NCBI GenBank assembly: GCA_002724735.1
Contig: PBPT01000016.1
Coordinates: 232,586-296,585, forward strand
Length of the DNA stretch: 64,000 nt
DNA from: Fidelibacterota bacterium
Lineage (GTDB): Bacteria; Fidelibacterota; Marinisomatia; Marinisomatales; TCS55
Reading direction: 5' to 3'
Shown: piece after piece, positions 15,801 through 43,596 of the stretch
Numbering within the stretch: the first letter of the stretch is position 1
How the letters are laid out: each line of letters starts with the position of its first letter
Position numbers and translations under genes: made by a program
The notes under the pieces: generated by a model
The model's database searches: none
What the model was told of the DNA's origin: nothing
The model's input: only the letters and a program-made list of their open reading frames with translations

Positions 15801-17747
15801 CAATATGATTCTTGGGGTAGTCAAGTATTAATTTTTGCGGAAGACAACGGAGGCTCAGGAGGTGCAGGGACAATATATCAATTCGGTGTAGCGGCAAAAT
15901 CACATGCAACTAGTTTACCTTCTTATACTGCAAATATGGCAGGGGTTGAATTAAAAGATGGCGCAATTATACCAGGTGATACAAATCAGCGTACAGGATT
16001 TGCTTTTGGTAATTATAGAGTTTGGTACTCAGGTAATAATTTTGGAAGCTATCAATACCATACGCCAACTAATGCATCAAATGATTCGGCACTATACAGT
16101 TATACTAAGGTCGCATACGGTCCAGGTGTAGGAGGTCCAGATGGAACATTTGTTTATTTAAACACAGGTTCAAAAGGAGGTGTTGCAATTAACACTACTA
16201 GATTCTCATCAGGTTTGTCTACTCAATATGACGCAGGAGCAACAGGAAGATTACCTGTTGGTTACACTGACGTCATTTTTGGTAATGGTAGATTTGTTGC
16301 TATAGACCCGGGTGATGTAAGCACAGAAACTAAAACAGCAATAAGTTTTGATGGAATATATTGGTATGAATACAGTATACCGGGCTCTACTGACTTTACA
16401 AGAATTTTTTACAGTGAAGGACACAAAGGACAATCAGGTATAGTAGATGGCAAATCAAGTGGCGGAACATTTATGGCCATAGGTACAGGTAATCAATTAG
16501 CAAAGTCACAAGACGGAGTTGTATGGAGAATTACAAGTGATGATAGTTCTGATTACCTTGCAACAGAAAGTGCAAGTTGGTCAGGAGCAGGATACAGTAC
16601 AGCATTAAATAATTGGGTAGTAATTGCAGACAATAATGCTAATTGGAACCTAGTCACAGGTTGGGGAGCGAAACCGTTTGCTAGAGCAGTAGTTAAGTCA
16701 GATAAAATTAACGAGTTTTTTGTATATGAACCTGGCAGTGATTACGCTTCGGCTCCAACAGTGACAGTTTATGATCCACAAGCAACAATTAATTCTGTAC
16801 AAGTAGCAAGAATAAACGATGGCGTTCTTCCTCAACCAGTATTTGGTAACAGAGGTACTTCTTACATTACTGCTTCTTGTACAATAGCAGGTTTTGGTCA
16901 TGCAGATAGTTTCCAAATAGGAGGCACATTAAAACTAAAAGGAGTAAGTTTAGTTCCCGGACCAGGCGATAACTTAGTAATAAGCGGAATAAACGATGTT
17001 GACTATAAAGTTTCTAGCATCGATGCACAATCAGGAAGTTCAGGAAATTATAATCTAACACTGACTATAAGTCCTACACTAGGTAGAGCAGAATCGCCTG
17101 AGCATAATACTGCTATTACTATACGTCAACAGTACAGTCAAGTTAGATTGACAGGACATGATTTCTTAGATGTTGGTTCTGGTAACATAGGAGACACAGA
17201 TTATCCTAATAGATATGTAGAAGGCTATAATGCTACAAACGATCCACAACAACAAAACGAAGTAAGAGAAGCTAATGCTGGTAGAGTATTTTATACTTCG
17301 ACAGACCAAGACGGTAACTTTAGAGTTGGTGAACAATTTAAAGTTGAACAAGATACAGGTATTATTACACTTAATGCTTCTTACTTTACTTTAACTGGAT
17401 TGACACAGCTAACACTAGGCGGAATTGTAGTAGGTGGAACACAAGTTATAATTAACGAATTTTCGAAAGAGCCTACATTTATTGCTAATGCAAATACTAT
17501 TGTACCTACACAAAGAGCAATAGGAAAATATTTGCAATCAAGAGTATCAGGTGGTAGTAGTAATGCAAACACTAACAAACTTGTGTCGGGTTCAATTAGT
17601 GTTACAGCAGACACTATGTCAACTACTAGTAATATGATACATTTAACTGCTAGAGGACATCATGATAAACCTACTAAAGGATCAATAGCGGCAATGCAAT
17701 ACTTTACTCATGGTGCTGATAGCGGAAATGATAGGACAAACATATAA
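12822..17747 (+). CDS. Large tail fibre/adhesin (1641 aa) with N-terminal W-x-Y-x-x-GDIV-x-Y-x-G carbohydrate-binding-like repeats and Asp-box-like propeller insertion
   Basis: Tandem W..Y..GD(I/V)V.Y.G..Y.C...HT modules; pectate-lyase-like central region; RVFYTSTDQDGNFRVGE(Q)F C-terminal motif. Confidence 0.7.
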   Translation: MAEFNIDRIRFRWKNIWAISTVYRKDDIVIYQGKSYVCLVGHTSQAVATGFYTDLNHATPKWELMLDGMMWRGDWVNNTYYSVGEIIKWEGYVYRCIEAHTSNVVTSQGPHTDYSKWTIVATTDNWTNTWTTGFFYDLGDIVIYNGITYRCIAKHTSASNVTDGLEQDQISWEIVARSDNWRADWTVNTRYMVDDVVRYNGIVYRCTVYHTSNAGESGGLEADLPKWEVVLDQFEYKVEWTTGTRYRKNDLVKYGETIWKCLVGHTASALFRTDEASSYWSVWLPGFGYELLWNQATEYQKGDIVLYGGYVYTCLQNNLGSVPSVNGKLQDTGDWELTKEGYKHQGEYNHVTQYYTGDVVRNGGYLYICVTNSISEYPDSSAKWQILVPGHKWKSDWVDNVQYYVGDIVTYDGSAYYCIARHAGTESDNRPDLDMANEHENYWQLMLAGIDGNVLTTDGDIRVRDASQTTRLAIGAPGATLKAVSNNTIWQDYGPVSKVYYVGVTGVDSANSGTTVNAPFRTIKYACDYINADWANRAPATVFVTAGYYDELTPISIPKETTLVGDELRSVTVQPAAGREANNMFYVSNGAGMRNMTLQGLTGTLGTVNAYGTKRPNAGAYVSLDPGTGISDTNTHITSKSPYIQNITTFGTGCVGLKIDGALHNSGYKSIVANDFTQIISDGIGYWATNNGRSELVSVFTYYCHIGYLADEGGKLRATNGNNSYGTFGSVAEGYDTTETAITGNVDNQASEASANVITDNQNMILALEYKNAGRTYKNKASGSNASTVTFAGQGVNATATYEETRDGAVSEIRLLDPGDSSAAGGNNYQYKLNNAQGGDATSITLAAADTDGSPSKYNGMRIFINSGVGVGQYGYISSYNDVSKVAQVSRESDGSAGWDHINPGWPIETLLGTNTRYSIEPRVTFSDHPLTATQITAPSSTIWKEVIWFDAGSCFVAVTAGGAGDTYTSHSADGITWSTPAVRFTGKDVVAVQYDSWGSQVLIFAEDNGGSGGAGTIYQFGVAAKSHATSLPSYTANMAGVELKDGAIIPGDTNQRTGFAFGNYRVWYSGNNFGSYQYHTPTNASNDSALYSYTKVAYGPGVGGPDGTFVYLNTGSKGGVAINTTRFSSGLSTQYDAGATGRLPVGYTDVIFGNGRFVAIDPGDVSTETKTAISFDGIYWYEYSIPGSTDFTRIFYSEGHKGQSGIVDGKSSGGTFMAIGTGNQLAKSQDGVVWRITSDDSSDYLATESASWSGAGYSTALNNWVVIADNNANWNLVTGWGAKPFARAVVKSDKINEFFVYEPGSDYASAPTVTVYDPQATINSVQVARINDGVLPQPVFGNRGTSYITASCTIAGFGHADSFQIGGTLKLKGVSLVPGPGDNLVISGINDVDYKVSSIDAQSGSSGNYNLTLTISPTLGRAESPEHNTAITIRQQYSQVRLTGHDFLDVGSGNIGDTDYPNRYVEGYNATNDPQQQNEVREANAGRVFYTSTDQDGNFRVGEQFKVEQDTGIITLNASYFTLTGLTQLTLGGIVVGGTQVIINEFSKEPTFIANANTIVPTQRAIGKYLQSRVSGGSSNANTNKLVSGSISVTADTMSTTSNMIHLTARGHHDKPTKGSIAAMQYFTHGADSGNDRTNI

Positions 17748-17748
17748 T

Positions 17749-17756
17749 GATAAATA
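17749..17756 (+). promoter_or_regulatory. T4-type late promoter
   Basis: GATAAATA upstream of the 17781 gene. Confidence 0.6.
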
Positions 17757-17780
17757 TATATAAGGTTTATGGAGTGCTAA

Positions 17781-20700
17781 ATGGCTGAATTTAAATTAGG
17801 TAGAATTAGGTTTATATGGAAGAATAATTGGACAGCTTCCACGACCTACTACAAAGATGATATTGTTAGAAATGGCGGTAATACATATATTTGTATTAAA
17901 GGGCATACTGCTCCAGCACTATTTTCTACTAACCAAGCAACTAATTGGAATAAAATTTCCGATGGAACTGAGTGGAAAGGTAACTGGTCTACAAGCACTC
18001 TTTACAAAATTAACGACATAGTAAAATATGGAGGATATCTATATATAGCAAATGCAGAGCATACTTCTGCCGCTACTGCTACTTTAGGATTAGAAGCTAA
18101 TCAAGGAAGCTGGGACTTATTTGCTGAAGGTTTTGATTACAAAGCTGATTGGAGTATTAATACAAGATATAAAGTAAACGATATTGTAAAGTATAACGGT
18201 ACAATTTATACTTGTGTAACTGCTCATACATCTGCAAGTACAACTACTTTAGGACTAGAAAATGACCAAGCAAAATGGAATATATTTTCTGAAGGATTTT
18301 ACTGGAAAAATGATTGGAACATTAATACTAGATATGTCGTAAATGACATAGTACGTTATGGCGGACAAGTATATGTCTGTAATCAAGGACACACGTCAGC
18401 GGCTTCTGTAGGTTTAGGTTTAGAAAATGATCAAAGTAAATGGGACTATCTAAACAAAGGATTAGAATACAAAACAGACTGGTCAACGAATACACGATAC
18501 AAAATAAATGACATTGTTAAGTATGGCGGCGGCACATGGATTTGTATCACTTATCACACAAGCCAATCTACTTTTGCAGCCGACGAAAATAAATGGTCAC
18601 AGTTTGTTGAAGGTTTAGAATTTGAAGATAGTTGGAGTGGTACAACAACATATCAACCAGGCGACTTTGTTACTTACGGCGGTTATTCATATGTTTCTAA
18701 AACAAATAACGTTGGTCAAGGTCATCCACCAGCAAATTCAACAGACTGGTCTTTATTTACTACAGGATTCAAACATGCCCAAGATTGGGGAGATGATAGT
18801 TCTGCAGAAGAATATAGAGTAGGTGATGTAGTACGACTAGGCGGATTTACATATCTATGTATACAAGATCATACAGGACAAAGACCACCTAACGGAACAT
18901 ACTGGGAACTCCTTAACGAAGGATTTAAATGGAAAAATGCATGGGCAACAGCTACACTATATGATAAAGGTGATTCTATTAGATATGGTGTTAACAGCTA
19001 TGTTTGTATTTTAGCTCACACATCTGATACAGCTAAACGTCCAGACAATGACACAGGCGGTGTGTACTGGAATGCATTAGTCGCAGGTGCAGAATCAGGC
19101 AACTTAACTACACAAGGTGATTTAGTTTACTATAGTGGTGCAGGTCCTACAAGATTACCAATTGGTGCTGAAGGACAAGTACTTAAAGTAAATGCCGCTG
19201 GTAATGCACCAGAATGGGGTTACTTTGGTAGGCTAAACAATGTTTATTATGTACATCCTACTGCTGGAGTAGATAGTCCAGCGAGTGCATACGGACTTAC
19301 TTTAGATCGTCCGTGGAAAACAATACAATATGCAACACAGCAATTATGGGACGGAGCACAGCGTCCTGCGGCGAAGAGACTGTTACACATTAATAGAAGT
19401 TACATAATGCACGATGCTGTTGAATTCGTAGATCACGGAATAGCAAATAACACAAGTCCATATACAGGTTCGTTCACATATACTAAGGCAACATGGATGC
19501 AATTTGTTGGTAGATTAGTTGATGCACTTGTTTATGATTTGAGTCACGGAGGCAATGTACGCACAAGAGAGTTAACTACAGCTATACATGCAGATGCAAC
19601 TATTACTGGTAAAACAACAGAATTTAATGCAATGATTGCAAGAGTATTAGTTGTTGCAGATGCAGTATTAAGCAATGCGGCTCCAGCATCTGATTATCAA
19701 ACTTTGCAAGGTTCTGTAACAGCTACACAGCAAACAGATACAAATTACACAGAAGAGTCAGATGATTTATCAACTGCAACAAGTTTAGCTAATATTTTAA
19801 CAGCGGCAGTGACAGCTGGTAATACAACAAATATGGCATCAGCTGTGATACCTAACAATTCACTCTATATTAAGAGCGGAACATTTCAAGAAACTCTTCC
19901 TATACTATGCCCTGCAAATACAGCATTGATAGGTGACGAATTACGTTCAACAAAAATACAACCAGCAGGTCAGCAAACACAAGCTACTGATGTGCCAAAA
20001 AGTATAGCGGCAATACAAAGATTAAAAGCAATTATAAGTGATATTGTAACAAACGGTTCAGTTACAAAATCAGCAGGAAATGCTGAAACACAAGTAACAT
20101 CAAGACCCGCAGGTTCAAGTGCGGCAGGTACTGCGGCTACAGCATTATTCCAAGAACTTGAAGACTATATTGATTATAGGGTAAATGGAGTAACTGGTGA
20201 TTCCACAGTTCCTACAACCAGAGGTACAAATACACCTACATATGATACAGGTTATAGATATGCTATAGAAGCTATAGAAGCTAACAGAACATTTTTAGTT
20301 GCAGAAGTACATGCTTATATTGCAGTGCAATATCCTAGCTACACATATACTATAGCGGCTTGTACAAGAGATGTTAACAGATATATTGACGCAATGAAAT
20401 ATGATTTAGAATATACAGGAAACTGGAGAATGATAAATGCGGCATTGTTGTATAGCAACTCTGTAAGTGGCTCTAGTACAGAAAATATGTTCTTTATGAG
20501 AAACGGTTCAGGCTTAAGAAACTGTACAGTAAGTGGCTTGTCTGGTACTTTAGGTAGTGCAAACTCCTATGGTACTAAACGACCAAGTGCAGGTGCATAT
20601 ATTAGCTTAGATCCAGGATATGGTCCAGCAGATACAGATGCACATATTTTAACTAGATCCCCATATATACAAAATGTAACAACATTTGGTACAGGTTGTA

Positions 20701-22553
20701 TTGGTCTTAAGATTGACGGAGACCTACATGACGGCGGAAATGACTCAATAGTTGCAAACGACTTTACACAAATTATTAGTGATGGTATTGGTGCTTGGGT
20801 AACAAACTTAGGTAGAGCAGAACTTGTTAGTGTGTTCTCTTATTATGCACACATAGGATATCTATCAGAAAACGGCGGCAAGATACGTGCAACAAACGGT
20901 AACAGCTCATATGGTGACTTTGGATGTGTAGCAGAAGGTATTGATAGCACAGAAACAGCAGTGACAGGTAAAGTTACTAACCAGTCAACAGAAGCTAAAA
21001 TTGAAAATATAGTTACTGACAAAAATCAGATACTATTCTTTGAATATTTAAATGCAGGAGTAAGCTATGCAGATGGTGATACAACTACAACAATAGTCGG
21101 AGGCAATAATGATGCGGCTATAAGTGCAGAAAATGTTTATAACGGTGCTGTTTATCAAGTTAGACTTACAGACCCATCAAGCGATTTAGGTGGCGCTGGA
21201 TACGTAACCGCTACTAATAATGCACAAGTAGGCACAGCAACACAAATTACTCTTAGTAACACAGATACCGCAACAAATGCAATGTATGCAGGTATGGCTA
21301 TTTGGATTGTAAGCGGCACAGGTGCAGGTCAATATGCATATATTAATACATATGATTCAGGCACAAAAGTCGCAACAGTGTTAAAAAACAGCGACGGAAC
21401 AGCAGGTTGGGATAGTGTATACGGAGCAGGTATTGTATCAGCTCTTGATGCAACTACAGAATATATAATTGAACCTAGAGTAGTGTTTAGCGGCGGCGGC
21501 GTAAGTGCATATGCTGATATTGCTAAAGCTAGAGCAAAAATTGAAGATGGAAAAGTAACACAAATTAAGATTTGGCATCCTGGTTCTGGATATAGTAGTA
21601 CACCAACAATGACACTGACTGATCCTAATAATACTGTTGACGTACCTCATACAGTAAGGACAGGTAGCGGTGTGTTAGGACAACCTACTTTTAGTAACAG
21701 AGGTACAGGATATACAACTGCTACAGCTACAGTAGCATCAGCAAATGGTTATGCAGATAACTATCAACCTGGACAATATGTCAAAGTTAAAAACTTAACT
21801 GAAACTCCAGTACAAGGAGCTAATGTAGAGATTGCAGGTATAGCAGGAAAATGGTATAAACTTGTAGGAGTAACACAAGTAACTGGTAGTGCGGGTAATT
21901 ATGAAGCATTACTACAAGTAAGTCCAGATATTACTGTAACAGAAGCACCAGAACATGATGAAGGTATAACTATACGTAGAAGATATAGTCAGGTTAGATT
22001 AACAGGACATGATTTCTTAGACGTAGGTACTGGTAATACAACAACTACAAACTATCCTGGAACTCCAAGTACACCAGCTGATCAAACAGACGAGACTAAA
22101 GATTTTGGTGGTGGTAGAGTATTTTATACCTCAACTGATCAGGACGGTAACTTTAGAGTAGGAGAATTATTCAGCGTTGAACAGTCTACAGGTAGAGCAA
22201 CACTAAATGCTGATGCCTTTAATGTTAGTGGATTACAAGAATTACAACTCGGTGAAATAAGTTTAGGTGGTACTAGTGCCACAATTACTGAGTTTTCAAC
22301 TGATGGTACGTTTACAGCCAACAGTGACAGTATTGTTCCAACACAGAGAGCTATTAAAACTTATATAGCAAGTCAAATTGGTGGCGGTGCTGGTGAACTA
22401 AATGTGAACTCGATTACTGCTGGTCAAGTTAATATAACTGGTCAGACAATATCGCATACAACCAATCAAGAGATAAATATAACAGCACAGGTAAACTATA
22501 CAGGTGGGGTGAGTGGATCACCCGTAGCCTTAAATATGTTTATTAACGCATAA
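17781..22553 (+). CDS. Large tail fibre/adhesin (1590 aa), paralogue of 12822
   Basis: Same N-terminal modules, central NGSGLRNCTVSGLSGTLGSANSYGTKRPSAGAYISLDPG block and C-terminal DQDGNFRVGE block. Confidence 0.7.
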   Translation: MAEFKLGRIRFIWKNNWTASTTYYKDDIVRNGGNTYICIKGHTAPALFSTNQATNWNKISDGTEWKGNWSTSTLYKINDIVKYGGYLYIANAEHTSAATATLGLEANQGSWDLFAEGFDYKADWSINTRYKVNDIVKYNGTIYTCVTAHTSASTTTLGLENDQAKWNIFSEGFYWKNDWNINTRYVVNDIVRYGGQVYVCNQGHTSAASVGLGLENDQSKWDYLNKGLEYKTDWSTNTRYKINDIVKYGGGTWICITYHTSQSTFAADENKWSQFVEGLEFEDSWSGTTTYQPGDFVTYGGYSYVSKTNNVGQGHPPANSTDWSLFTTGFKHAQDWGDDSSAEEYRVGDVVRLGGFTYLCIQDHTGQRPPNGTYWELLNEGFKWKNAWATATLYDKGDSIRYGVNSYVCILAHTSDTAKRPDNDTGGVYWNALVAGAESGNLTTQGDLVYYSGAGPTRLPIGAEGQVLKVNAAGNAPEWGYFGRLNNVYYVHPTAGVDSPASAYGLTLDRPWKTIQYATQQLWDGAQRPAAKRLLHINRSYIMHDAVEFVDHGIANNTSPYTGSFTYTKATWMQFVGRLVDALVYDLSHGGNVRTRELTTAIHADATITGKTTEFNAMIARVLVVADAVLSNAAPASDYQTLQGSVTATQQTDTNYTEESDDLSTATSLANILTAAVTAGNTTNMASAVIPNNSLYIKSGTFQETLPILCPANTALIGDELRSTKIQPAGQQTQATDVPKSIAAIQRLKAIISDIVTNGSVTKSAGNAETQVTSRPAGSSAAGTAATALFQELEDYIDYRVNGVTGDSTVPTTRGTNTPTYDTGYRYAIEAIEANRTFLVAEVHAYIAVQYPSYTYTIAACTRDVNRYIDAMKYDLEYTGNWRMINAALLYSNSVSGSSTENMFFMRNGSGLRNCTVSGLSGTLGSANSYGTKRPSAGAYISLDPGYGPADTDAHILTRSPYIQNVTTFGTGCIGLKIDGDLHDGGNDSIVANDFTQIISDGIGAWVTNLGRAELVSVFSYYAHIGYLSENGGKIRATNGNSSYGDFGCVAEGIDSTETAVTGKVTNQSTEAKIENIVTDKNQILFFEYLNAGVSYADGDTTTTIVGGNNDAAISAENVYNGAVYQVRLTDPSSDLGGAGYVTATNNAQVGTATQITLSNTDTATNAMYAGMAIWIVSGTGAGQYAYINTYDSGTKVATVLKNSDGTAGWDSVYGAGIVSALDATTEYIIEPRVVFSGGGVSAYADIAKARAKIEDGKVTQIKIWHPGSGYSSTPTMTLTDPNNTVDVPHTVRTGSGVLGQPTFSNRGTGYTTATATVASANGYADNYQPGQYVKVKNLTETPVQGANVEIAGIAGKWYKLVGVTQVTGSAGNYEALLQVSPDITVTEAPEHDEGITIRRRYSQVRLTGHDFLDVGTGNTTTTNYPGTPSTPADQTDETKDFGGGRVFYTSTDQDGNFRVGELFSVEQSTGRATLNADAFNVSGLQELQLGEISLGGTSATITEFSTDGTFTANSDSIVPTQRAIKTYIASQIGGGAGELNVNSITAGQVNITGQTISHTTNQEINITAQVNYTGGVSGSPVALNMFINA

Positions 22554-22567
22554 TGGAGATATAACAA

Positions 22568-22885
22568 ATGGCCACAGGAAGATTAGGAACAGCGGATTTA
22601 ACAGGCGCAACGAATACTGATATTTACACTTGTCCGGCAAGCACCTATGCAGTAGCTAGTGTTAATTTTGTCAATAGAGGCAACGCCGTAGTCTTGCTTC
22701 GTTTAGCAATTTGTGATACAAGCACTCCAGGTGCAGATGAGTACATTGAGTATGATGTTGAACTGAATCCAAAAAACGTATTAGAACGCACTGGTATAGT
22801 CGTTGACGCCGGTAAGAAAATAGTTGCATACGCTAGCTCAAGCAACGTAAGTGTAGTAGCTATGGGTATTGAGACAACGGCATAA
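22568..22885 (+). CDS. Small fibre-associated virion protein
   Basis: Third paralogue of the 8095/12091 family. Confidence 0.5.
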   Translation: MATGRLGTADLTGATNTDIYTCPASTYAVASVNFVNRGNAVVLLRLAICDTSTPGADEYIEYDVELNPKNVLERTGIVVDAGKKIVAYASSSNVSVVAMGIETTA

Positions 22886-22888
22886 ATA
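22881..22888 (+). promoter_or_regulatory. T4-type late promoter (CATAAATA)
   Basis: CATAAATA overlapping the stop of the 22568 gene. Confidence 0.55.
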
Positions 22889-22905
22889 TATAAAAGGACA
22901 ATATA

Positions 22906-23226
22906 ATGGGAAGATATTTAACAAGCACACTTAACTACGCAACTACAAATGTTGTCACAGGTACTAGTGTAAACGCGGCAGTTAATCAGCGTATTTTATG
23001 TACAGCTGGTGGCATTACAGTAACCCTTCCAGCAAGTCCAACAGAAAATGATACTATTCAAGTAGTTGATATTTCTGGAACAGCTGGATCGTCAAATATC
23101 ACAGTAGCAAGAAACGGGCAAGAAATTCAAAATGATGCTTCGGATCTTATTATTGATATTAATAATGCTTCGCCGATACTAGTGTATTCTGGGGCTACTT
23201 ATGGTTGGGTATTATGTGGCTCATAA
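22906..23226 (+). CDS. Small beta-rich virion protein
   Basis: NQRILCTAGGITVTLPASPTENDTIQVVDISGTAGSSNITVARNG, common in phage tail proteins. Confidence 0.5.
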   Translation: MGRYLTSTLNYATTNVVTGTSVNAAVNQRILCTAGGITVTLPASPTENDTIQVVDISGTAGSSNITVARNGQEIQNDASDLIIDINNASPILVYSGATYGWVLCGS

Positions 23227-23251
23227 GTAAGATTAATCAGGGAGTTAGTCA

Positions 23252-24058
23252 ATGACTGCTTTAACAACACTACTGGCCGATATAGGACCACAAAGCGTAG
23301 GTAACATACCTCAAAGACTTAGAGTATGGAATACATCGCATACAAGTGCCGCCAACGGAGGTTGCTGTTGTTTGTGGACTGTGCCTGCAGGTATAACAAG
23401 TCTTGTGTTTAAACTATGGGGCGGTGGTTCATCAGGTAATGATGGATGTTGTTGTAGTTTTGAAGCTTATCAAGGAACTAGTGGTTCTTATGTTTGGTAT
23501 CAAATGGATACCCAAGCAGGTTGTCAATATAGAATTTGTGCAGGATCGTCAACTGGTTGTGCATATAATAAATCAAATACTAGCTGTTATGGTTGTCCAT
23601 CATATGTTTATGATGTAACAGCGGCCGCAACTATAATTTGTGCATGTGGAGGTGATGAAGGATCACAACAGCCAGGGTTCCAGAGCCCATACAATGCATA
23701 TACTTGCTGTTTTGGAAGAATACAAGGCGGTTCATCTAGTGCTACACAAGGTTATGTTGCAGATGCTAACAAAGGAATAATTATGCCAGGTATTGGTGGG
23801 CATGGTACAAGAAATACATACTGTCATACGCAGTATTATTATTGGACCCATTCAGGATTTAATCAGCCTGGACAAATGAACGAAGATTTATGTTCTTGTT
23901 GGTATCAACAAGGACGATATGTAATGTGTACAAGTGGTGATCCATTTACAGGAAATAAATTTCCTGGAGGACCAGGAACAAGCGGAATAGCTTGCGGAGG
24001 TTCACACTGTGATGGACAACCAGGTGGCGGTGGCCAAGTGTATGTATACTATAATTAA
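23252..24058 (+). CDS. Cys/Gly-rich putative adhesin A
   Basis: NGGCCCLWTVPAG..LVFKLWGGGSSG signature; about 8% Cys; paralogous to 24751 and 25511. Confidence 0.6.
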   Translation: MTALTTLLADIGPQSVGNIPQRLRVWNTSHTSAANGGCCCLWTVPAGITSLVFKLWGGGSSGNDGCCCSFEAYQGTSGSYVWYQMDTQAGCQYRICAGSSTGCAYNKSNTSCYGCPSYVYDVTAAATIICACGGDEGSQQPGFQSPYNAYTCCFGRIQGGSSSATQGYVADANKGIIMPGIGGHGTRNTYCHTQYYYWTHSGFNQPGQMNEDLCSCWYQQGRYVMCTSGDPFTGNKFPGGPGTSGIACGGSHCDGQPGGGGQVYVYYN

Positions 24059-24077
24059 TAATGTGTGAGGAAAGAAA

Positions 24078-24749
24078 ATGCCAGAAAATACAATAGCTAG
24101 TAAAACATTTGATTACAAATTGCCAAACAAGATGTTTGATTCTAGTGATAGTGATGGACTAACAGCTTCTGCTACATACAATGGACCAGACAAGGTTTAT
24201 GTATTTGTTGATACAGACGGTGACAACAAGGGCAAAAGAATTAGAAGTCCAGGAGAACTAACAGAAAGAGATGAAGGAGCAGATGTTCCTGTACCAGTAG
24301 GTACTACAAGAGTTGAAGTAACTCTTGCAGATGATCCTTTAATGATGGCAATTTTTAGAGTTGCTGATTCAACTATTGTAACAAATGATCAAACAACAGT
24401 TACAGAAACATACGGTGATTACACCATAAAATATAATGGTAAGCCAGAAATTGGAGAAACATACGTCGACGAAAGCGAATGTGTTTATGATTTAGATGCA
24501 AAAACATGGTCAGCAGGTTACAAAACTTCACCAGTTGATTGGGATGACATTATATTACAAAGAGATTCACAGCTAGAAGCTTCCGACGGTAAAATTTCAC
24601 CAGATATGCCCGATGCTGTAAAAACACCATGGGTTACTTACAGACAAGCACTTAGGGATCTACCAACAGTTTATAAAAAAGGTGAATCAGACGAAGTAGA
24701 AGCTTGGAAAGTTGAATTTCCGTTAGCACCAGATACGAAGGCAGAATAA
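24078..24749 (+). CDS. Adhesin-associated protein B
   Basis: YNGPDKVYVFVD motif shared with 26321; alternates with Cys-rich genes. Confidence 0.5.
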   Translation: MPENTIASKTFDYKLPNKMFDSSDSDGLTASATYNGPDKVYVFVDTDGDNKGKRIRSPGELTERDEGADVPVPVGTTRVEVTLADDPLMMAIFRVADSTIVTNDQTTVTETYGDYTIKYNGKPEIGETYVDESECVYDLDAKTWSAGYKTSPVDWDDIILQRDSQLEASDGKISPDMPDAVKTPWVTYRQALRDLPTVYKKGESDEVEAWKVEFPLAPDTKAE

Positions 24750-24750
24750 T

Positions 24751-25500
24751 ATGTCAGCACTGAAAACAATGTTACAATATGGAGGCGGTGGCGGCACCGT
24801 AGCTGTTGATTCAATGGTAGTCTATCACACAAGTGTAGACAATATGGAAAATGGCGGATGCTGTTGTTTATGGACAGTACCAACTGGCGTTACATGGTTT
24901 GCAGTGGAAATGTGGGGCGGCGGCGGAGGCGGCGCAGGTAACTGTTGCTGTTTCTTTGGTATTCCAGGCGGAGCAGGAAGCTATGCAAGAAAAATTATTA
25001 ACACTGTAGCAGGACAGCAGTACAGATTTTGTGCAGGCGGTTCAACTACTTGTGCAAATACAAACACTGGATGTCCAGGATATCCTAGTTATGCTTATGG
25101 TGTAACAGAAGCCGCTAATGTTATTTGTGCAAGTGCAGGTAAAGTAGGATGTAATTATTGCTGGGGTCCAATTGGAAACAGCTATATGGGTTGTTCAGCA
25201 TATGAATGCGGCTCATGGTGTGGCGGATTTGGAATATGCGGAATGTCCGGTGCTTTTAAAGGTACAGCATTTTGTTCAGGAACAGCATGGAACTGGGCAC
25301 CACAAGCACCATTTACAGGAGATTTTTTCCGTCCAGCAAGAGACGCATGTTCAGGTTATTGCTGTGGTTGTGGACAACAAGGATATGCTTATTGGCCAGG
25401 CAGCGGTGGCGGAACGGCGTCAAGTCATAACAGCTATTGCGGTTGTGGTGCGGCAGGAGCCGGAGGTTTAATTATAGTAGAATGGCACGTAGCATCGTAA
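24751..25500 (+). CDS. Cys/Gly-rich putative adhesin A'
   Basis: NGGCCCLWTVPTGVTWFAVEMWGGGGGG; about 9% Cys. Confidence 0.6.
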   Translation: MSALKTMLQYGGGGGTVAVDSMVVYHTSVDNMENGGCCCLWTVPTGVTWFAVEMWGGGGGGAGNCCCFFGIPGGAGSYARKIINTVAGQQYRFCAGGSTTCANTNTGCPGYPSYAYGVTEAANVICASAGKVGCNYCWGPIGNSYMGCSAYECGSWCGGFGICGMSGAFKGTAFCSGTAWNWAPQAPFTGDFFRPARDACSGYCCGCGQQGYAYWPGSGGGTASSHNSYCGCGAAGAGGLIIVEWHVAS

Positions 25501-25510
25501 GGAATAGAAC

Positions 25511-26311
25511 ATGAGTCAATTAACAAATTTAATATACGGTTACGAAACAGGCGGTGTTATCAAACCACAAGAATTTTATATACAAAATACAAATAAGTGG
25601 TTACCACACAACGGAGGATGTTGTTATCTTTGGACAGTGCCAGCAGGTGTAACAAAGGCAGTATTTGAAGTATGGAGCGGCGGTGCAGGCGGTGGCTATA
25701 GCTGTTGTTGTACACAAGGCGGCGGTGGCGGCGGTGGCGGCTATATGATGGTCGAAACTGATGTTTCTGCAGGCGATCAAATTAGAATGTGTTCAGCTGG
25801 TACATCTGGTGCTAATATGAGTTGTTGTGCAGGATTCCACGGATGTTCGTCATATGTTTGTAATGGTGACGGAACTTGGTGTATGTGCGTAGAAGGCGGA
25901 TTATGCTCTGCTAGATATACAAGGTGTCATTTAGCTACAAACTGTTATTCTTGTTGTTCTATGTGTGCATGTTGTTCAAACAATTATATAAGTGGTTCAG
26001 GAATAACCACATTAGAATGTCAAACTAGTGTAACAGGTGCATATCGTAGTAGCCAATTTTGTATCGAAGCAGGTTGGCAACATGTAGGTAGTGCATACGG
26101 TACACCAGGACCTAGACCACAAGGTACTTCAACATGCTGTAACAGTTGCCATGGTGGCATTTGTGGATCATACTCTAGTTGTTGTGGACAAGCATGTATG
26201 ATGATGGGCATGCACCCAGGCGGTGGAGGAATGACAGGCTGGACTAATGACGGTACATGTAGATGTGGCGGCGTTGGTGGCGGCGGAATGATTTATGTGG
26301 TATACTGGTAG
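25511..26311 (+). CDS. Cys/Gly-rich putative adhesin A''
   Basis: NGGCCYLWTVPAGVTKAVFEVWSGGAGG; about 12% Cys; Gly8 run. Confidence 0.6.
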   Translation: MSQLTNLIYGYETGGVIKPQEFYIQNTNKWLPHNGGCCYLWTVPAGVTKAVFEVWSGGAGGGYSCCCTQGGGGGGGGYMMVETDVSAGDQIRMCSAGTSGANMSCCAGFHGCSSYVCNGDGTWCMCVEGGLCSARYTRCHLATNCYSCCSMCACCSNNYISGSGITTLECQTSVTGAYRSSQFCIEAGWQHVGSAYGTPGPRPQGTSTCCNSCHGGICGSYSSCCGQACMMMGMHPGGGGMTGWTNDGTCRCGGVGGGGMIYVVYW

Positions 26312-26320
26312 GGAATAATT

Positions 26321-27364
26321 ATGGCTATAAATGAAATAACAAAAGAATTTACTTACGATTTACCTGATGATATATATCACCAAACTAACGACCTAGGTAA
26401 AAAAGCAAGAGTAATTTACAAAGGTCCTGATAAAGTATATGTATGGGTTGATAGTATTACAAATAAACTTATACGTTGTGAATCAGGAGGAGAAGTAGGT
26501 CAGCAATTATTTAATGGCGAGATACCATTTCCACAAGGTGATCATTATATGGTAGAAGTAAGACCTGAAGATTCTAATACTGAATGTATTATAGCTGGCT
26601 TATTTGAAGGCGTTGATCCCCATTCAATTCCTGACATAGAAGAAGATGTACCAGGACAAGATACACCATATGTAAGAGATAAGTATCCCGTACCTAATCA
26701 TACTTACGAAATTACAGAAATTGAGTATTCTCCTCAAGCAGAGCAATGGGTAACTCCGTTACCTTGGAGAAAACCTATTATGACATGGGAAGAGAAAGTT
26801 GCTTTTAGAGACAACCAGTTACAGAACAGTGATAGACTTTACAGTGAAGATTTGCCTTCAGGATTAATTACAAAAATACAAGAATATAGAACATATCTAA
26901 GAGATATTACTGAAACAGTTGGTGTTGCATGGACAGCTACAGTGCCAACAGGTGGTTCTGGTTATAGTGTCGGAGATGTGTTATTAGTACAAGATCCTAA
27001 ATATAAAAACACACAAGTAGTTGACGAAGTGAAACTTACTGTTACTAAAGTAAGTGGTTCAGGAGCAATTACAGAGTTTAGTGTTGAAAATAAGAGAGCA
27101 TTATATCATCCAGAAGCCGCAGTTTACACAGAATGTTTCTTTGTAACAAACGGAAGCGGAACAGGAGCAAAAGTTACTCTTACTAAAGTTAAACAAGTTG
27201 ATCCTTGGAAAGTAAAATGGAGAGAATCACCATTGTTTACAAGACCTACAAGCTGGAAAAAAGTTACTAAAGCTAATAGTGTAGCAACAGATACAGAAGA
27301 TGCACATGCATTTGAAGAAGCTGAAAAAACTTATAATCCAGCATTATCAACAGCAGTAGAATAA
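26321..27364 (+). CDS. Adhesin-associated protein B' with GSGYSVGD module
   Basis: YKGPDKVYVWVD paralogous to 24078; PTGGSGYSVGDVLLVQDP module also found in the 32512 protein. Confidence 0.5.
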   Translation: MAINEITKEFTYDLPDDIYHQTNDLGKKARVIYKGPDKVYVWVDSITNKLIRCESGGEVGQQLFNGEIPFPQGDHYMVEVRPEDSNTECIIAGLFEGVDPHSIPDIEEDVPGQDTPYVRDKYPVPNHTYEITEIEYSPQAEQWVTPLPWRKPIMTWEEKVAFRDNQLQNSDRLYSEDLPSGLITKIQEYRTYLRDITETVGVAWTATVPTGGSGYSVGDVLLVQDPKYKNTQVVDEVKLTVTKVSGSGAITEFSVENKRALYHPEAAVYTECFFVTNGSGTGAKVTLTKVKQVDPWKVKWRESPLFTRPTSWKKVTKANSVATDTEDAHAFEEAEKTYNPALSTAVE

Positions 27365-27396
27365 AGTCACTTTATCTAATTTATAAATCTTTGGTC

Positions 27397-27404
27397 GCTA
27401 AATA
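27397..27404 (+). promoter_or_regulatory. T4-type late promoter (GCTAAATA)
   Basis: GCTAAATA followed by hairpin CATAGTAG/CTACTATG (27407-27429). Confidence 0.55.
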
Positions 27405-27454
27405 TTCATAGTAGCAATTAACTACTATGTTTACTAACGATAGGATCTATAAAT

Positions 27455-28390
27455 ATGGCAAGAAGCACTGCAATTTTTATTAATGGTGGAGCAGGAAGAG
27501 TTGTTTGCTCGATTCCTGCACTTGAAAAGTTTCACGAAGAAAATCCAGATGACAACTTTTTAGTTGTATGTGAGGGAGGTTCTGATTTTTTTAAAGGACA
27601 TCCTGTGCTACATGCAAAAGCATATGATCATTGGCACAAAAATTTATTCGAAGATAAGCTCAAAGATATGAATATGCTTAGTCCAGAACCATACAGGGTT
27701 TGGGAATACTATAATCAAAAATGCAGTTTATCACAAGCATATGATATTGCAATCAACAATCAAGGTGTAAGAGACTTACCTAAGCCCACTATTAAGCTTA
27801 GTAAAGGTGAACTTATGCGGGCTTCTACAGTAATAAAAGAAGTAAGAGAAAAAACCGAAAGAGAAAAAATAATTGTTATTCAACCTTTTGGTAAAGGTAT
27901 TATTGAAGAAGGCGGCATGCTAACAGATTTTAGCGGTAGAAGTATTGAGCCTACAAATTTAGTCAACATGGTTAAGGCACTTTCTAAAAACTATGGTATA
28001 ATTTTTATGGGAGAAATAGCTATTGACTTTAAAGAACATGGTGTAGACAGACCAATTGCTGTACCTAAAGGAACTGATTTGAGAACTTGGACAGCATTAA
28101 TAGCCGAAGCTGATTACTTTGTGGGCTGTGATAGTGTAGGACAACATCTTGCTTATGCAACAGGTATTCCGTCCACGGTTGTCATTGGAAGTACATTTCC
28201 TATTAATACTTCCTATCCAAATTGTGAATCATTTAATATAATGGACATGGGCGAACTTTCAAGAGTATACAGCCCGATTAGAGTGACTGTAGATGAATTT
28301 TCAGACAGAGTAAACGAAGGCATTATGCAAATGAATGACAAAATAGAAACCCATATTGTAGAAGAAATCGATAAGCATTTAGGCGAGTAA
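27455..28390 (+). CDS. Glycosyltransferase family 9 (heptosyltransferase)-like protein
   Basis: FINGGAGRVVCSIPALEKFHEENPDDNFLVVCE N-terminus and ADYFVGCDSVGQHLAYATGIPSTVVIGST C-terminal GT9-like motif. Confidence 0.65.
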   Translation: MARSTAIFINGGAGRVVCSIPALEKFHEENPDDNFLVVCEGGSDFFKGHPVLHAKAYDHWHKNLFEDKLKDMNMLSPEPYRVWEYYNQKCSLSQAYDIAINNQGVRDLPKPTIKLSKGELMRASTVIKEVREKTEREKIIVIQPFGKGIIEEGGMLTDFSGRSIEPTNLVNMVKALSKNYGIIFMGEIAIDFKEHGVDRPIAVPKGTDLRTWTALIAEADYFVGCDSVGQHLAYATGIPSTVVIGSTFPINTSYPNCESFNIMDMGELSRVYSPIRVTVDEFSDRVNEGIMQMNDKIETHIVEEIDKHLGE

Positions 28391-28392
28391 TC

Positions 28393-29361
28393 TTGGCTAG
28401 ACTTTTCACATTCGGTTGTAGTTTCTCTCTAGTTGATTGGCCGACGTGGGCAACAATACTATGCTACGATACAGATTATGACAAGGCAGAAAACTGGGGG
28501 CTTCCTGGTATAGGCAATCTTGGTATTGCACAGAGATTAGCTGAATGCCATTCAAAAAACAAATTTACAAAAGACGATACAATAATTGTACAATGGTCTT
28601 CCCATTTAAGAAATGATTATCACTTATTCAAAAAAACTAGTAAGACTTGGATAGATTCTGGACTTCCGGAAAAAAATAAAGAATCGGCTTGGTTAACTAA
28701 AGGTTCTATGTTTAACATGCATAATACATCTATATATAACAGAGTATGGTTAGATCATTTTTTTAGTGAGCAGACATACGTTATGTATTCACTAAATGCA
28801 ATAACACTTGCTCAAGCACTTTTAAAATCTGTAGGCTGTACATGGTTTATGACTAGTATAGGAGATTTTCAAAAATTAGGTGCAGATTTTTTAAATTTTA
28901 ATGGCGACGGAGAATCAACTGATGCAGAAGGTAATCTACTAGAAAGATATCCTGAATTTGAACATTATGTAAACATGATATGGAATGATAATAAAGAGTA
29001 TTGGTTAAAACCTATTGGTAATCATGTTTGGGAAGGACAAAAATTAGGAAAGGAACAATTCTTAACCGACTCTAATCGTGTATACAAGTTTGGTAACACA
29101 AATGCTTCTACAAAGAAACAGCAACCTTATTGGTGGGATCCTCATCCTTCTACAGACGGCGCGGCTTCGTGGCTATTGGAAATATTGTTGCCAGCTTTGA
29201 AGAAAAATATTAAATTTAATGATAAACAAAGTAGTATAATCAAAGGCATAAACAGCATTTATAAATCAGTGCCGGACATAGATTTGTTTACCTTTAGAGA
29301 GCAAGTAAGAAATTATTGTTTTGAAAATGATATAAACTTAATGGAAACAACAGGATATTAA
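28393..29361 (+). CDS. SGNH/GDSL-hydrolase-like protein (TTG start)
   Basis: LFTFGCSFS nucleophile block and DPHPSTDGAASWLL C-terminal D-x-x-H block. Confidence 0.5.
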   Translation: MARLFTFGCSFSLVDWPTWATILCYDTDYDKAENWGLPGIGNLGIAQRLAECHSKNKFTKDDTIIVQWSSHLRNDYHLFKKTSKTWIDSGLPEKNKESAWLTKGSMFNMHNTSIYNRVWLDHFFSEQTYVMYSLNAITLAQALLKSVGCTWFMTSIGDFQKLGADFLNFNGDGESTDAEGNLLERYPEFEHYVNMIWNDNKEYWLKPIGNHVWEGQKLGKEQFLTDSNRVYKFGNTNASTKKQQPYWWDPHPSTDGAASWLLEILLPALKKNIKFNDKQSSIIKGINSIYKSVPDIDLFTFREQVRNYCFENDINLMETTGY

Positions 29362-31167
29362 ATGACTAAACCAATATGGATCGCAGGAATAGCTAGAGGA
29401 CATAACGCAGGTGTATGTTTGTTAAAAGATGGCAAAATTGTTTTTAGTATCGAAGAAGAAAGACTTACTAGATTAAAATACGATGGCGGACCATTGGCTA
29501 GTATTCTTAAAATAAAAGAATATACTGACAGATTAGATTACTTAGTAATTGCACATACTACTGGATTAGAAGAAACTGCTGGTAAATTAGATTACTCTGG
29601 TGAAGATGTTTACACAGGTTTAGCTAGAAAAATAGGTTTATTGCATACACAAGATCCATCAAGCAGAGCAGAAGTAATTGATGTAGCAATGTATCATCAC
29701 AAAATGCATGCGGCAATGGCTTTTTATAGATCAGGATTTGACGAAGCTGTAGCGGTTATTGTTGATGGAGCTGGTACGTTTTTTCCATTGACCCACGAGG
29801 GCAATAGTATGACTATTTGGGAAACAGAAAGTATTTACAAATGTCAGTATCCTGATAAATTTAAAACTCTACACAAAAGTATAGGTGCAAGAGAAGCTAT
29901 ACCAGGTGCAGTAGTTGATAATTGGGATGCCACTAATTGGGGCGAGCCTAATACAAATTATACTGCTTTTATTCATGATCGTGCAGGAATTGTTAAAGCA
30001 TATGAAGCTGTTACTGAATACTGTGGCTTTCAAGCTATTGAAGCAGGTAAAACTATGGGCCTTTCACCCTACGGTAAACCTAACGATAATATTCCTGCTA
30101 TTATGGATAACGAAGTAACACTACCAATTCCAACAACTAGTAGAAGTTTAATAGTACCAAGATATCCTAATGGAGCTGTTGTTAACAAAGGAATGTATGC
30201 AGAGTTAGATAATGAAGAATTAGCATTTGATCAGGAAGATGTTACTTACTTAGAAAATAGAAGAGACTTAGCATATGCTGTACAACAAGAAACACAAGAA
30301 GCAGTAGTAAAGCTAATTAGACATGCTGTTGAAAAATCAAGATGTAAAAAAGTTGTGATAAGCGGAGGATACGGTTTAAACTGTGTAGCTAATTATCATT
30401 ACTTAGAAGCTTTAAAAGATGAAGGCATTGAAATTTATGTAGAGCCTATTTCTAATGATGCAGGCACAGCAATGGGTGCGGCATTACTTCAGCATTATAA
30501 AGTATCCCAAGATACAAAAGTTAATGCAAGAGCAGATAACGTATTTTTAGGTCCTAAATATGAATATTCAGAACAAGAAATTTATAGCACAGTTGAAAAA
30601 TATGATGCTGAAATTAAAGATGCAAATCATGAAGATGTAGTCGAACTTATGACTACAAAAAATATTGTTGCTTGTTTTCAAGGGCGATCAGAAAATGGAC
30701 CACGTGCATTAGGTAATAGAAGCTTGATGTTTGACCCTACTTATAAAGACGGAAAAGATTTTGTAAATGCAGTAAAACGTAGAGAATATTTCAGGCCTTT
30801 TGCTGGCAGTATACTAGAAGAAGATGCACATGATTGGTTTGATTTACGAGGAATGGATAGCAGTCCTACAATGATGTATGCTGTAAATTGTCAAGAAGGT
30901 GTAGAAGAAAAAATTCCTGCAATTATCCATGTAGACGGAACTTGTCGCATTCAAACTGTAAGTAGAGATCAAAATCCACATTATTACGATATTATTAAAG
31001 CATTTAAAGATAAAACAAACGTTCCAATTATTTTTAACACAAGTTTTAACTTAGGCGGTGAACCATTAGTAGAAACCCTTGATGATGCAATACGCACACT
31101 TGCTACCAGTGATATTGAGTATCTATACTTGCCAGAATTTGGAAAACTAATCATAGTAAATAACTGA
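29362..31167 (+). CDS. Carbamoyltransferase, NodU/CmcH family
   Basis: GIARGHNAGVCLLKDGKIVFSIEEERLTRLKYDGG; GGYGLNCVANY; GRSENGPRALGNRSLMFDP; FNTSFNLGGEPLVETLDDAIRT. Confidence 0.9.
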   Translation: MTKPIWIAGIARGHNAGVCLLKDGKIVFSIEEERLTRLKYDGGPLASILKIKEYTDRLDYLVIAHTTGLEETAGKLDYSGEDVYTGLARKIGLLHTQDPSSRAEVIDVAMYHHKMHAAMAFYRSGFDEAVAVIVDGAGTFFPLTHEGNSMTIWETESIYKCQYPDKFKTLHKSIGAREAIPGAVVDNWDATNWGEPNTNYTAFIHDRAGIVKAYEAVTEYCGFQAIEAGKTMGLSPYGKPNDNIPAIMDNEVTLPIPTTSRSLIVPRYPNGAVVNKGMYAELDNEELAFDQEDVTYLENRRDLAYAVQQETQEAVVKLIRHAVEKSRCKKVVISGGYGLNCVANYHYLEALKDEGIEIYVEPISNDAGTAMGAALLQHYKVSQDTKVNARADNVFLGPKYEYSEQEIYSTVEKYDAEIKDANHEDVVELMTTKNIVACFQGRSENGPRALGNRSLMFDPTYKDGKDFVNAVKRREYFRPFAGSILEEDAHDWFDLRGMDSSPTMMYAVNCQEGVEEKIPAIIHVDGTCRIQTVSRDQNPHYYDIIKAFKDKTNVPIIFNTSFNLGGEPLVETLDDAIRTLATSDIEYLYLPEFGKLIIVNN

Positions 31168-31173
31168 TAAATA
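31166..31173 (+). promoter_or_regulatory. T4-type late promoter
   Basis: GATAAATA. Confidence 0.6.
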
Positions 31174-31191
31174 TAATGACAAAGGATCATT

Positions 31192-31593
31192 ATGTTTAAC
31201 ATTGCAAATTACTTTAAAGACGGAATTAAAAAAACATTACTTCTTCGCAATAATGGTGCTACCTCTCATAATGGTCCATGGAAACAAGCTTATACAAATA
31301 CACAAGTAGAACGCTGGCATGCAGGTGAATTTAGCACAGCAGAATTTACAATCTCAATAGACTATAACAATGCTAATAAAGAAATAATCAAGTGTATTGT
31401 TGCAGTAGGTGTAGACTATGCTAATCTAAATGCATTTTCTCGTAGCAATTTAGGCAACGATCTTGTAGACCTGTCAGTCACAGTAAATCAATCATATGTT
31501 GACTTACTTATAACAGCTAAAACAGGATATGAAGGTGCGAAGTTTATTTACACTGCAAATTACTTTCAAAACCAAAATCCATTAACTAGTTGA
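31192..31593 (+). CDS. Hypothetical protein
   Basis: Intact ORF, RBS aagga, late promoter upstream. Confidence 0.45.
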   Translation: MFNIANYFKDGIKKTLLLRNNGATSHNGPWKQAYTNTQVERWHAGEFSTAEFTISIDYNNANKEIIKCIVAVGVDYANLNAFSRSNLGNDLVDLSVTVNQSYVDLLITAKTGYEGAKFIYTANYFQNQNPLTS

Positions 31594-31606
31594 CATTCAT
31601 AACTAG

Positions 31607-31614
31607 GCTAAATA
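31607..31614 (+). promoter_or_regulatory. T4-type late promoter (GCTAAATA)
   Basis: GCTAAATATACTATATGGAG upstream of the 31633 gene. Confidence 0.6.
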
Positions 31615-31632
31615 TACTATATGGAGTAAAGA

Positions 31633-32505
31633 ATGCCAACGACAGTTAATACGCCTTTTAGATCAGAATACGGGTTCAAGAGCCCTAATTTTACAGTAGA
31701 CGCTAACGGAAATATATCTGCTAGTACTTTAACTTTATCTGTAGATAATTCTGAAGCAGGATTAGCGGCAGATTACGACTTTGTGGAAGCCGCAGGCAAT
31801 TTCAGATTTGATGGCCAATTAAATAATCAACCTGGCATAACCGTATATAGAAATCAAACATCTACAATAGATTTAGCATTTACAACTTTAGTTTTTAAAA
31901 TCTTTAGTAGTGTTACACCTGGATCAACAGCAGTTTATAGTAGTGGTTTAAGGCACAGTGATAGTACAGTTGGAGACTCTGCACAAGGAAAAAGCTCAGG
32001 AAGACTAACATGGACTATTCCTTTATCTGCACCAGATACATTGTATTATGGTAATGTAGATGGTACAGTGTATGGTGTAATTACAGTTTTAGATCAAGCA
32101 AGAAACTTTAGTGAAGTTAGTATCACAAATACTACACAAAGTACAAGTGTTTCAACTGGTGCTTTAAAAGTATCCGGAGGTTTGGGCGTAGTAGGAAATG
32201 CAAATATTGGCGGTACAATGAGTGTTGCTAGTATGATATCAGCTACTGGCGGAGTAACAGGAGATCTTAATGGCTCTGTATATTCAGATAACAGTACTTT
32301 GTTAGTCGATAGTGTAAACGGAAGAATAGTAGGACCTATAAATAACAGTACAATTGATAATACAACAATAGGTGCAACTACACCATCAACAGCATCTTTT
32401 ACAACCGCAACACTAAGTGGCGCAGTATCAGGAGTAACAGCAGTGCCAAACAAAAAATATGTAGATGAAACATCAACAGCGTTTGCGATAGCATTTGGGA
32501 TTTAA
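31633..32505 (+). CDS. Tail fibre-like/virion protein
   Basis: VSTGALKVSGGLGVVGNANIGGTMSV and PSTASFTTATLSG motifs; fibre-type repeats. Confidence 0.55.
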   Translation: MPTTVNTPFRSEYGFKSPNFTVDANGNISASTLTLSVDNSEAGLAADYDFVEAAGNFRFDGQLNNQPGITVYRNQTSTIDLAFTTLVFKIFSSVTPGSTAVYSSGLRHSDSTVGDSAQGKSSGRLTWTIPLSAPDTLYYGNVDGTVYGVITVLDQARNFSEVSITNTTQSTSVSTGALKVSGGLGVVGNANIGGTMSVASMISATGGVTGDLNGSVYSDNSTLLVDSVNGRIVGPINNSTIDNTTIGATTPSTASFTTATLSGAVSGVTAVPNKKYVDETSTAFAIAFGI

Positions 32506-38889: not shown

Positions 38890-39497
38890 TTTTCTAAACT
38901 TTTTACAAAGTCAGAAAGCGTATCAAAAACTTTGGTACGCTTTTTTATTGCTTTGTAAGTAAATCTATTTAATAATTTTTCTGTTTCTTCACCATATCCG
39001 GTGCGTACTAAGATAGGAATAGCACCTATTTTCATTGCGGCCTTTAAATCAGTAATTTTGTCACCAACATAAAAACCTTGTGCAAACTTTACGTGTGGTA
39101 TTTCTTTTTCACATCGTTTGAACATTCCTATATTAGGCTTCGCGTACATATCATTTTTTCTGCTACTAGCACTATAGTAGATTCCGTCTATACTAGTGCA
39201 ACCAGCTTTACCTAGTAATTCAAACAAATGCTTATGTACGTTATCTACATCTTCTTGCGTAAATAATCCTTTTTCAATACCACCTTGATTTGTGATAATT
39301 GTAATCTTATGACCTAATCTGCGTAGTTTAGCAATAGCTTCTATGCTACCAGGAATAGGTTCAAAGTCTTTTATTTTGTAACAATATGTGCCTAGATCTT
39401 TGTTGATTACACCATCTCTATCTAATCCTACTACACACTTAGGTGCGATATAATTAGGACTAGGATCATAGTCGTCACTCCAACTTATTTCAACCAT
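38886..39497 (-). CDS. gmhB: D-glycero-D-manno-heptose-1,7-bisphosphate 7-phosphatase-like (HAD-IIIA)
   Basis: GLDRDGVIN, ITIITNQGGI, KPNIGMF, YVGDKITDLKAA motifs. Confidence 0.75.
   Translation of the reverse strand: MVEISWSDDYDPSPNYIAPKCVVGLDRDGVINKDLGTYCYKIKDFEPIPGSIEAIAKLRRLGHKITIITNQGGIEKGLFTQEDVDNVHKHLFELLGKAGCTSIDGIYYSASSRKNDMYAKPNIGMFKRCEKEIPHVKFAQGFYVGDKITDLKAAMKIGAIPILVRTGYGEETEKLLNRFTYKAIKKRTKVFDTLSDFVKSLEN
38915..38946 (+). terminator. Plus-strand terminator inside the 3' end of gmhB
   Basis: AAAGCGTA-tcaaaaactttgg-TACGCTTT then T run; just after the 32512 stop. Confidence 0.65.
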
Positions 39498-39891
39498 TTT
39501 CTGTTTCTTTACTTTGACTGTCGCCTGGAATAAGTCTGTAATTATCTTCTACTGAATCAGCTGTACTAACTTCAGTTACTGAACTCATAGGTTCTAAACA
39601 TTCTAACTGATGAGGTTGTAAAGGAGGATTATGCCAAACATCACCTTCTTTTAATTCTTTCTCGTGTAACGTAGCATTAGAAGTATCAATCCATCTTACG
39701 ATAAATTTTCCGCTATTAACAAACCATGTTTCTTCTTTTTCTTTGTGAAAATGCATACTAAACTTTGCACCTACTTTTTCAAATACCATTATCTTACCAC
39801 AGTACTTGTCGTTAGTTGCCCATATTAATTCATAGCCCCAACCTTTGGGTACATGTCCTTCTAATCTTGTAGGTTCTTTCATTAGTTCCAC
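39490..39891 (-). CDS. Cupin protein (mannose-6-phosphate isomerase type II-like)
   Basis: KGWGYELIWATNDKYCGKIMVFEKVGAKFSMHFHKEKEETWFV cupin motif. Confidence 0.65.
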   Translation of the reverse strand: MELMKEPTRLEGHVPKGWGYELIWATNDKYCGKIMVFEKVGAKFSMHFHKEKEETWFVNSGKFIVRWIDTSNATLHEKELKEGDVWHNPPLQPHQLECLEPMSSVTEVSTADSVEDNYRLIPGDSQSKETENG

Positions 39892-43123: not shown

Positions 43124-43129
43124 ATAACT

Positions 43130-43158
43130 ATTATACTATTATTTGCCTTATTTGTCAA
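43130..43158 (-). promoter_or_regulatory. Consensus sigma70 promoter of the hldE operon
   Basis: Minus strand TTGACA-N17-TATAAT, perfect; 6 nt between the -10 box and the hldE ATG. Confidence 0.8.
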
Positions 43159-43588: not shown

Positions 43589-43596
43589 ACAAGTAA

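Follow-up and report, generated by a model that had tools for sequence, protein, structure and literature searches.

Among described systems, the closest to the locus analysed here is the gp24/gp25 pair of cyanophage Pam3 (PDB 7YPX, 7YFW; PMC9608196). The fibre protein gp24 is a homotrimer that joins a TNF-like beta-sandwich to a glycine-rich lattice, docks to the baseplate via a long N-terminal helical bundle, and is folded by gp25, the product of an adjacent, dedicated Tfa-type chaperone gene; gp24 was found in Pam3 virions and gp25 was absent from them (PMC9608196). A second counterpart is gp38 of T-even phages such as S16 and PP01, a Gly-rich host-recognition protein encoded beside the distal tail-fibre gene of T4-type phages. 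The gp38 architecture comprises a helical attachment domain, a beta-helix, and a polyglycine-II sandwich. In S16, one gp38 caps the gp37 trimer, and the gp38 lattice springs from a beta-helix (PMC6851490).

The window, the whole stretch of 64,000 nucleotides that was analysed (G000:C57:232586-296585), lies within a contig of 335,231 bp, and a T4-type portal is encoded. The capsid protein of this phage is 65-69% identical to those of the jumbo phages Phosso, Vibrio 2.275.O, and PA5oct, and the nearest capsid proteins belong to jumbo phages with non-cyanobacterial hosts (Sinorhizobium, Vibrio, and Pseudomonas). On these sequence grounds the window was assigned to a jumbo phage of the T4 type whose DNA was binned together with that of a bacterium. 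A cyanophage origin is unlikely, given these capsid relatives and the lack of any Photo_RC (psbA/psbD) match in assembly G000, although the host could conceivably still be a cyanobacterium. A diversity-generating retroelement was also considered and rejected, RVT_1 having no match across the whole assembly. The first-pass annotation had proposed an interleaved gene order A-B-A'-A''-B' at 23252-27364, and an ORF check placed all five ORFs at the predicted positions. The features of the cassette and its upstream neighbours are as follows:

17781..22553, + strand: long tail fibre protein, 1590 aa, with CBM_5_12 repeats (phrog_9851 tail fiber, E 3e-219)
22568..23226, + strand: pair of small proteins related to tail fibres, 105 and 106 aa (phrog_11338, phrog_31104)
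23252..24058, + strand: A, putative Cys-rich glycine-rich adhesin, paralogue 1, 268 aa, 7.8% Cys
24078..24749, + strand: B, candidate tail-fibre assembly chaperone, 223 aa, Phage_tail_APC motif at residues 160-197
24751..25500, + strand: A', putative Cys-rich glycine-rich adhesin, paralogue 2, 249 aa, 9.2% Cys, modelled
25511..26311, + strand: A'', putative Cys-rich glycine-rich adhesin, paralogue 3, 266 aa, 11.7% Cys
26321..27364, + strand: B', second candidate chaperone, 347 aa, APC motif followed by an insert of about 100 aa

The paralogy claimed by the same annotation was confirmed. A, A', and A'' are 33-35% identical in pairwise comparison and have NGGCC(C/Y)LWTVP(A/T)G in common, and B and B' are 31% identical and share GPDKVYV. 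Its claim of an extraordinary cysteine content (8-12%) was likewise borne out by the values listed above, compared with a mean of 0.97% over the 53 genes of the window, in which the highest gene after the A proteins reached 2.4% and the B and B' proteins contained 0.4 and 0.9%. The IMG/VR loci contain 878 further ORFs of 150 aa or more, for which the mean was 1.17%, the 99th percentile 3.65%, and the maximum 6.9%; therefore, the Cys content of the A proteins is not due to chance. Such a load runs counter to expectation for a protein assembled in the reducing cytoplasm. The cassette was present in contig C77, a second assembly of the window phage that differs at 3 of 19,001 bases (99.98% identical), and in one IMG/VR contig identical to the window phage over 8.8 kb, cassette included, indicating that it is no assembly artefact. 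Assembly G000 thus contains one phage region twice, as L009 (G000:C77) and as window positions 13155-32155.

Homologues of the A proteins were gathered with DNA patterns and a profile, giving about 300 distinct sequences. The family was found in more than 100 IMG/VR loci, and the cassette was also present on two MAG contigs. Cys content was 6-13% in 301 of 307 homologues and 0-1.3% in the remaining six, a bimodality that arises partly from the search, since one DNA pattern selects for Cys; the loci obtained with a pattern lacking a Cys requirement, few in number, likewise showed no intermediate contents. A tblastn search with A' as the sole query returned nothing in phages, and one with a protein of the A-A-A-B type returned phage matches. 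The T4-like cyanophage isolates carrying the family are S-SSM7, S-SSM6a, Sf-FS3, P-SSM2, P-SSM5, S-CAM1, and S-CAM3. In S-SSM7, P-SSM2, S-CAM1, S-CAM3, and Sf-FS3, the A genes are annotated as 'hypothetical protein', lie between a tail-fibre gene (upstream) and a carbamoyltransferase gene (downstream), and code for proteins with 8-12% Cys. PSSM2_304/306 of P-SSM2 and SSSM7_114-116 of S-SSM7 thus belong to the same Cys-rich family and occupy the same neighbourhood as the A genes of the window, but their cassettes are ordered A-B-A and A-A-A-B, respectively, and their hosts are cyanobacteria. No description of a Cys-rich cyanophage family of this kind was found among the open-licence papers searched. 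Virion proteomics turned up for no member of the family; the three cyanophage virion proteomes named in one report (PMC3037559) are those of S-SM1, S-PM2, and Syn9, and none of these phages was among the A matches.

The 68 complete cassettes were of the types A-A-A-B (35), A-B-A-A-B (14), A-B (11), A-B-A (6), A-A (1), and A-A-A (1). When A genes were sorted by cassette position 1, 2, or 3, they formed largely position-specific clades (25 changes vs 84.8 in shuffles), and the position-3 genes of A-B-A-A-B cassettes, which correspond to A'', formed one clade. Similarly, B genes grouped by cassette type and position, and the nearest relatives of A itself were found at the matching cassette position in two loci, L015 and L017. 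These position-wise clades indicate that the A paralogues are old and have been co-inherited. They would also suit an arrangement in which A, A', and A'' build one heterotrimeric tip on the trimeric fibre in place of alternative homotrimers, which is compatible with any reading of the cysteines. Exactly three A genes are present in 50 of the complete cassettes, in agreement with such a tip; however, 7 cassettes contain two and 11 contain one, paralogues with different receptors would give position-specific clades as well, and gp24 of Pam3, where the usual set of three genes has no parallel, is a homotrimer (PMC9608196). We therefore consider a heterotrimer quite improbable, more so than any of the alternatives discussed below.

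The AlphaFold2 model of A', based on a 67-sequence alignment, was mainly beta (pLDDT 82, pTM 0.82), with weak loops. In a Foldseek search against the PDB, its top match was the Pam3 fibre protein gp24 (7ypx; significant at E 1e-6, but with a TM of only 0.51), followed by Bxb1 gp33 and the glycine-rich domain of ALK/LTK, animal receptor kinases. In the viral library, the family member of S-CAM3 ranked best; P-SSM2 and numerous Gly-rich proteins of phages came next. Pfam Gly_rich_2 (PF21722) was detected in 41 of 67 A-family members at E <= 0.01 (best 4e-9), the three window proteins falling just under its gathering cut-off. ALK_LTK_GRD (PF12810) matched one member, but the sequence similarity to the ALK/LTK domain is weak, and its function and host are unrelated to those of A. 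Searching PDB sequences with profiles of A and of two Cys-poor relatives gave nothing informative beyond a weak match to Bxb1 gp33. Phage proteins with the Gly_rich_2 domain, together with phrog_4205, share this domain with A by profile, and the Cys-poor members encountered here, in which Cys makes up only 0-1.3% and Gly as much as 32%, align to the A-family profile, L163 over almost its full length. This indicates that the cysteines are a property of the A lineage and, together with the Foldseek matches, that A combines an already known fold with an unusual composition. The first-pass idea of a new adhesin fold is thus not supported by these matches, whereas its reading of A as adhesins with Gly-rich loops gained strength from the Gly_rich_2 hits, the Pam3 fibre match, and the fibre-gene neighbourhood.

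The A proteins also depart from both described systems. In contrast to gp24, the A' model has only a short helix at its N-terminus (residues 2-7, low confidence) and no long helical bundle, and A is Cys-rich, whereas the paper on gp24 mentions neither cysteine nor disulfide (PMC9608196). The structures of S16 and PP01 gp38 were not among the best 50 Foldseek matches listed for A', and the 8-12% Cys of the A family sets it apart from gp38. By analogy with Pam3 gp24 and S16 gp38, the Gly-rich part of A may form a polyglycine-II lattice (PMC9608196, PMC6851490).

The partner B matched Phage_tail_APC (Pfam PF16778, E 2e-8), phrog_9740, and phrog_4912, and B' matched phrog_9740 (E 1e-26) and, under the Pfam cut-off, PF16778 (E 2e-4). 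The first-pass annotation had not recognised the Phage_tail_APC motif in B. This motif was present in 46 of 51 B-family members, and a B-family gene adjoins the A genes in 66 of the 68 complete cassettes, as the chaperone gene adjoins the fibre gene in Pam3. The model of B was of high quality (pLDDT 95.7), but a Foldseek search against the PDB at E <= 0.001 matched it to no solved structure, Pam3 gp25 included. Only the C-terminal APC motif thus links B to a chaperone family, and B probably folds A as gp25 folds gp24. Profiles for sheath domain I and for head decoration matched the insert of B' (residues about 206-300) weakly.

The A genes are located downstream of the distal fibre gene, with two small genes between in the window and none in S-SSM7 and Sf-FS3; P-SSM2 and S-CAM1 have genes of similar size at the spot of the 105/106-aa pair. 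The fibre protein encoded at 17781..22553 probably carries the adhesins. It is one of two neighbouring giant tail-fibre paralogues (12822-22553; 1641 and 1590 aa), with 7 or 8 CBM_5_12 stretches apiece. Directly 3' of the cassette, positions 27455-31167 code for a GT9-like glycosyltransferase, a 322-aa protein without assignment, and a carbamoyltransferase, an order that parallels the cyanophages; in P-SSM2, the adhesin genes are followed by PSSM2_307, the start of which resembles the GT9-like protein of the window, and a Nol-like carbamoyltransferase. The adhesin cassette may travel together with these glycosyltransferase and carbamoyltransferase neighbours. Farther on, a cluster of HAD phosphatase, cupin, 2OG-Fe(II) oxygenase, and NUDIX genes lies on the - strand at 38886-45021, and similar sugar and oxygenase genes are located downstream of the adhesins in P-SSM2 and S-CAM1. 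The cassette itself probably codes for adhesins at the tip of the tail fibre and for their chaperones.

No residue class is more strongly conserved in the A family than cysteine. The first-pass annotation had staked its reading on cysteines being shared among homologues, and they are: 15 alignment columns are at least 80% Cys, and Cys-majority columns had the lowest mean entropy (1.37 bits, vs 1.52 for Trp and 1.64 for Gly). Among 147 representatives, the columns of A' C38, C39, C65, C94, C126, C148, C175, and C200 were 94-100% Cys. The number of cysteines was odd in 81 of these representatives and even in 66. A tree-aware test of joint gain and loss found 0 of 325 pairs of Cys columns beyond chance, with weak power and with the near-invariant columns outside the test. 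Weighted Cys co-occurrence reached a phi of 0.92, mostly splitting cassette types, and no pair was outstanding in the tree-aware test. At the sequence level, strict one-to-one disulfides in A are neither supported nor excluded by the parity and co-loss tests, the near-invariant columns falling outside the latter. A period-3 pattern along polyglycine-II helices was rejected, as spacing 3 was at 1.11x, inside the shuffle range.

Marine phage tails have been proposed to exploit host metal uptake, the 'Ferrojan horse' idea. Accordingly, the same adhesins and chaperones might use their cysteines to bind Fe, Zn, or Cu as thiolate clusters, either structural or exploiting that uptake. The Cys runs of the A proteins are dense (CC, CCC, CxC), Cys pair spacings of 1, 2, 5, and 6 were enriched vs block shuffles, and the odd Cys numbers and missing pairwise co-loss suit clusters no less than they suit pairs. 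In addition, potential iron-binding domains have been reported in a tail fibre of a marine Alteromonas phage (PMC11705849). However, no metal-binding family was matched in Pfam, PHROGs, or NCBIfam, and at Cys columns G, N, S, Y, and T outnumber His and Asp as alternatives, although these two (5% each) are at about twice background. We consider metal binding unlikely. It is equally doubtful that Cys acts as a compact, moderately hydrophobic packing residue on the lattice faces, with no obligate bond or metal. The columns do change one by one, even numbers are not preferred, and Gly is the commonest alternative at Cys columns (11%), followed by Asn and Ser; but this share of Gly is below its overall 18%, and several columns of 94-100% Cys among proteins of about 30% identity exceed what simple packing demands.

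The explanation we lean towards, by a small measure, combines tip adhesins, chaperones, and cysteine cross-links formed after lysis. It draws directly on the gene order, the abundance and conservation of Cys, the matches to known families and folds, and the co-inheritance of paralogues. The cassette would supply the tail fibre with its host-recognising tips and with the chaperones that fold those tips. Each A protein would consist of a short N-terminal segment, a beta-sandwich, and a polyglycine-II-type Gly-rich lattice, the loops of which would touch the host surface, and B and B' would be Tfa/APC-type chaperones folding A in the host cytoplasm. The distinctive trait would be some 20-30 cysteines per A scaffold, many at conserved positions. 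These might stay thiols while A is being assembled in the reducing cytoplasm and, upon lysis into oxic seawater, become cross-links, partly disulfides, stiffening a scaffold that backbone hydrogen bonds would mainly hold. This role of the cysteines is a tentative proposal, somewhat less likely to be right than wrong. A stronger form, a redox-switched adhesin, is unlikely: thiols would keep A soluble and chaperone-bound in the cell, and oxic seawater would zip adjacent Gly-rich strands by a dense disulfide or thiolate-metal network into a receptor-binding lattice that is rigid only outside, possibly as a heterotrimer of the three paralogues.

On our best reading, the family is a cysteine-loaded, chaperone-paired version of Gly-rich fibre-tip adhesins, shared by a jumbo phage and by cyanophages that have been known for long. 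For marine phages of the T4 type, the proteins that recognise the host are poorly assigned, the P-SSM2 and S-SSM7 genes having so far been 'hypothetical'. Identification as fibre-tip adhesins and chaperones would provide named host-range candidates in cyanophages and a jumbo phage, and whether the A cysteines in the virion are oxidised, reduced, or metal-bound becomes a concrete question that may be approached in cultured isolates.
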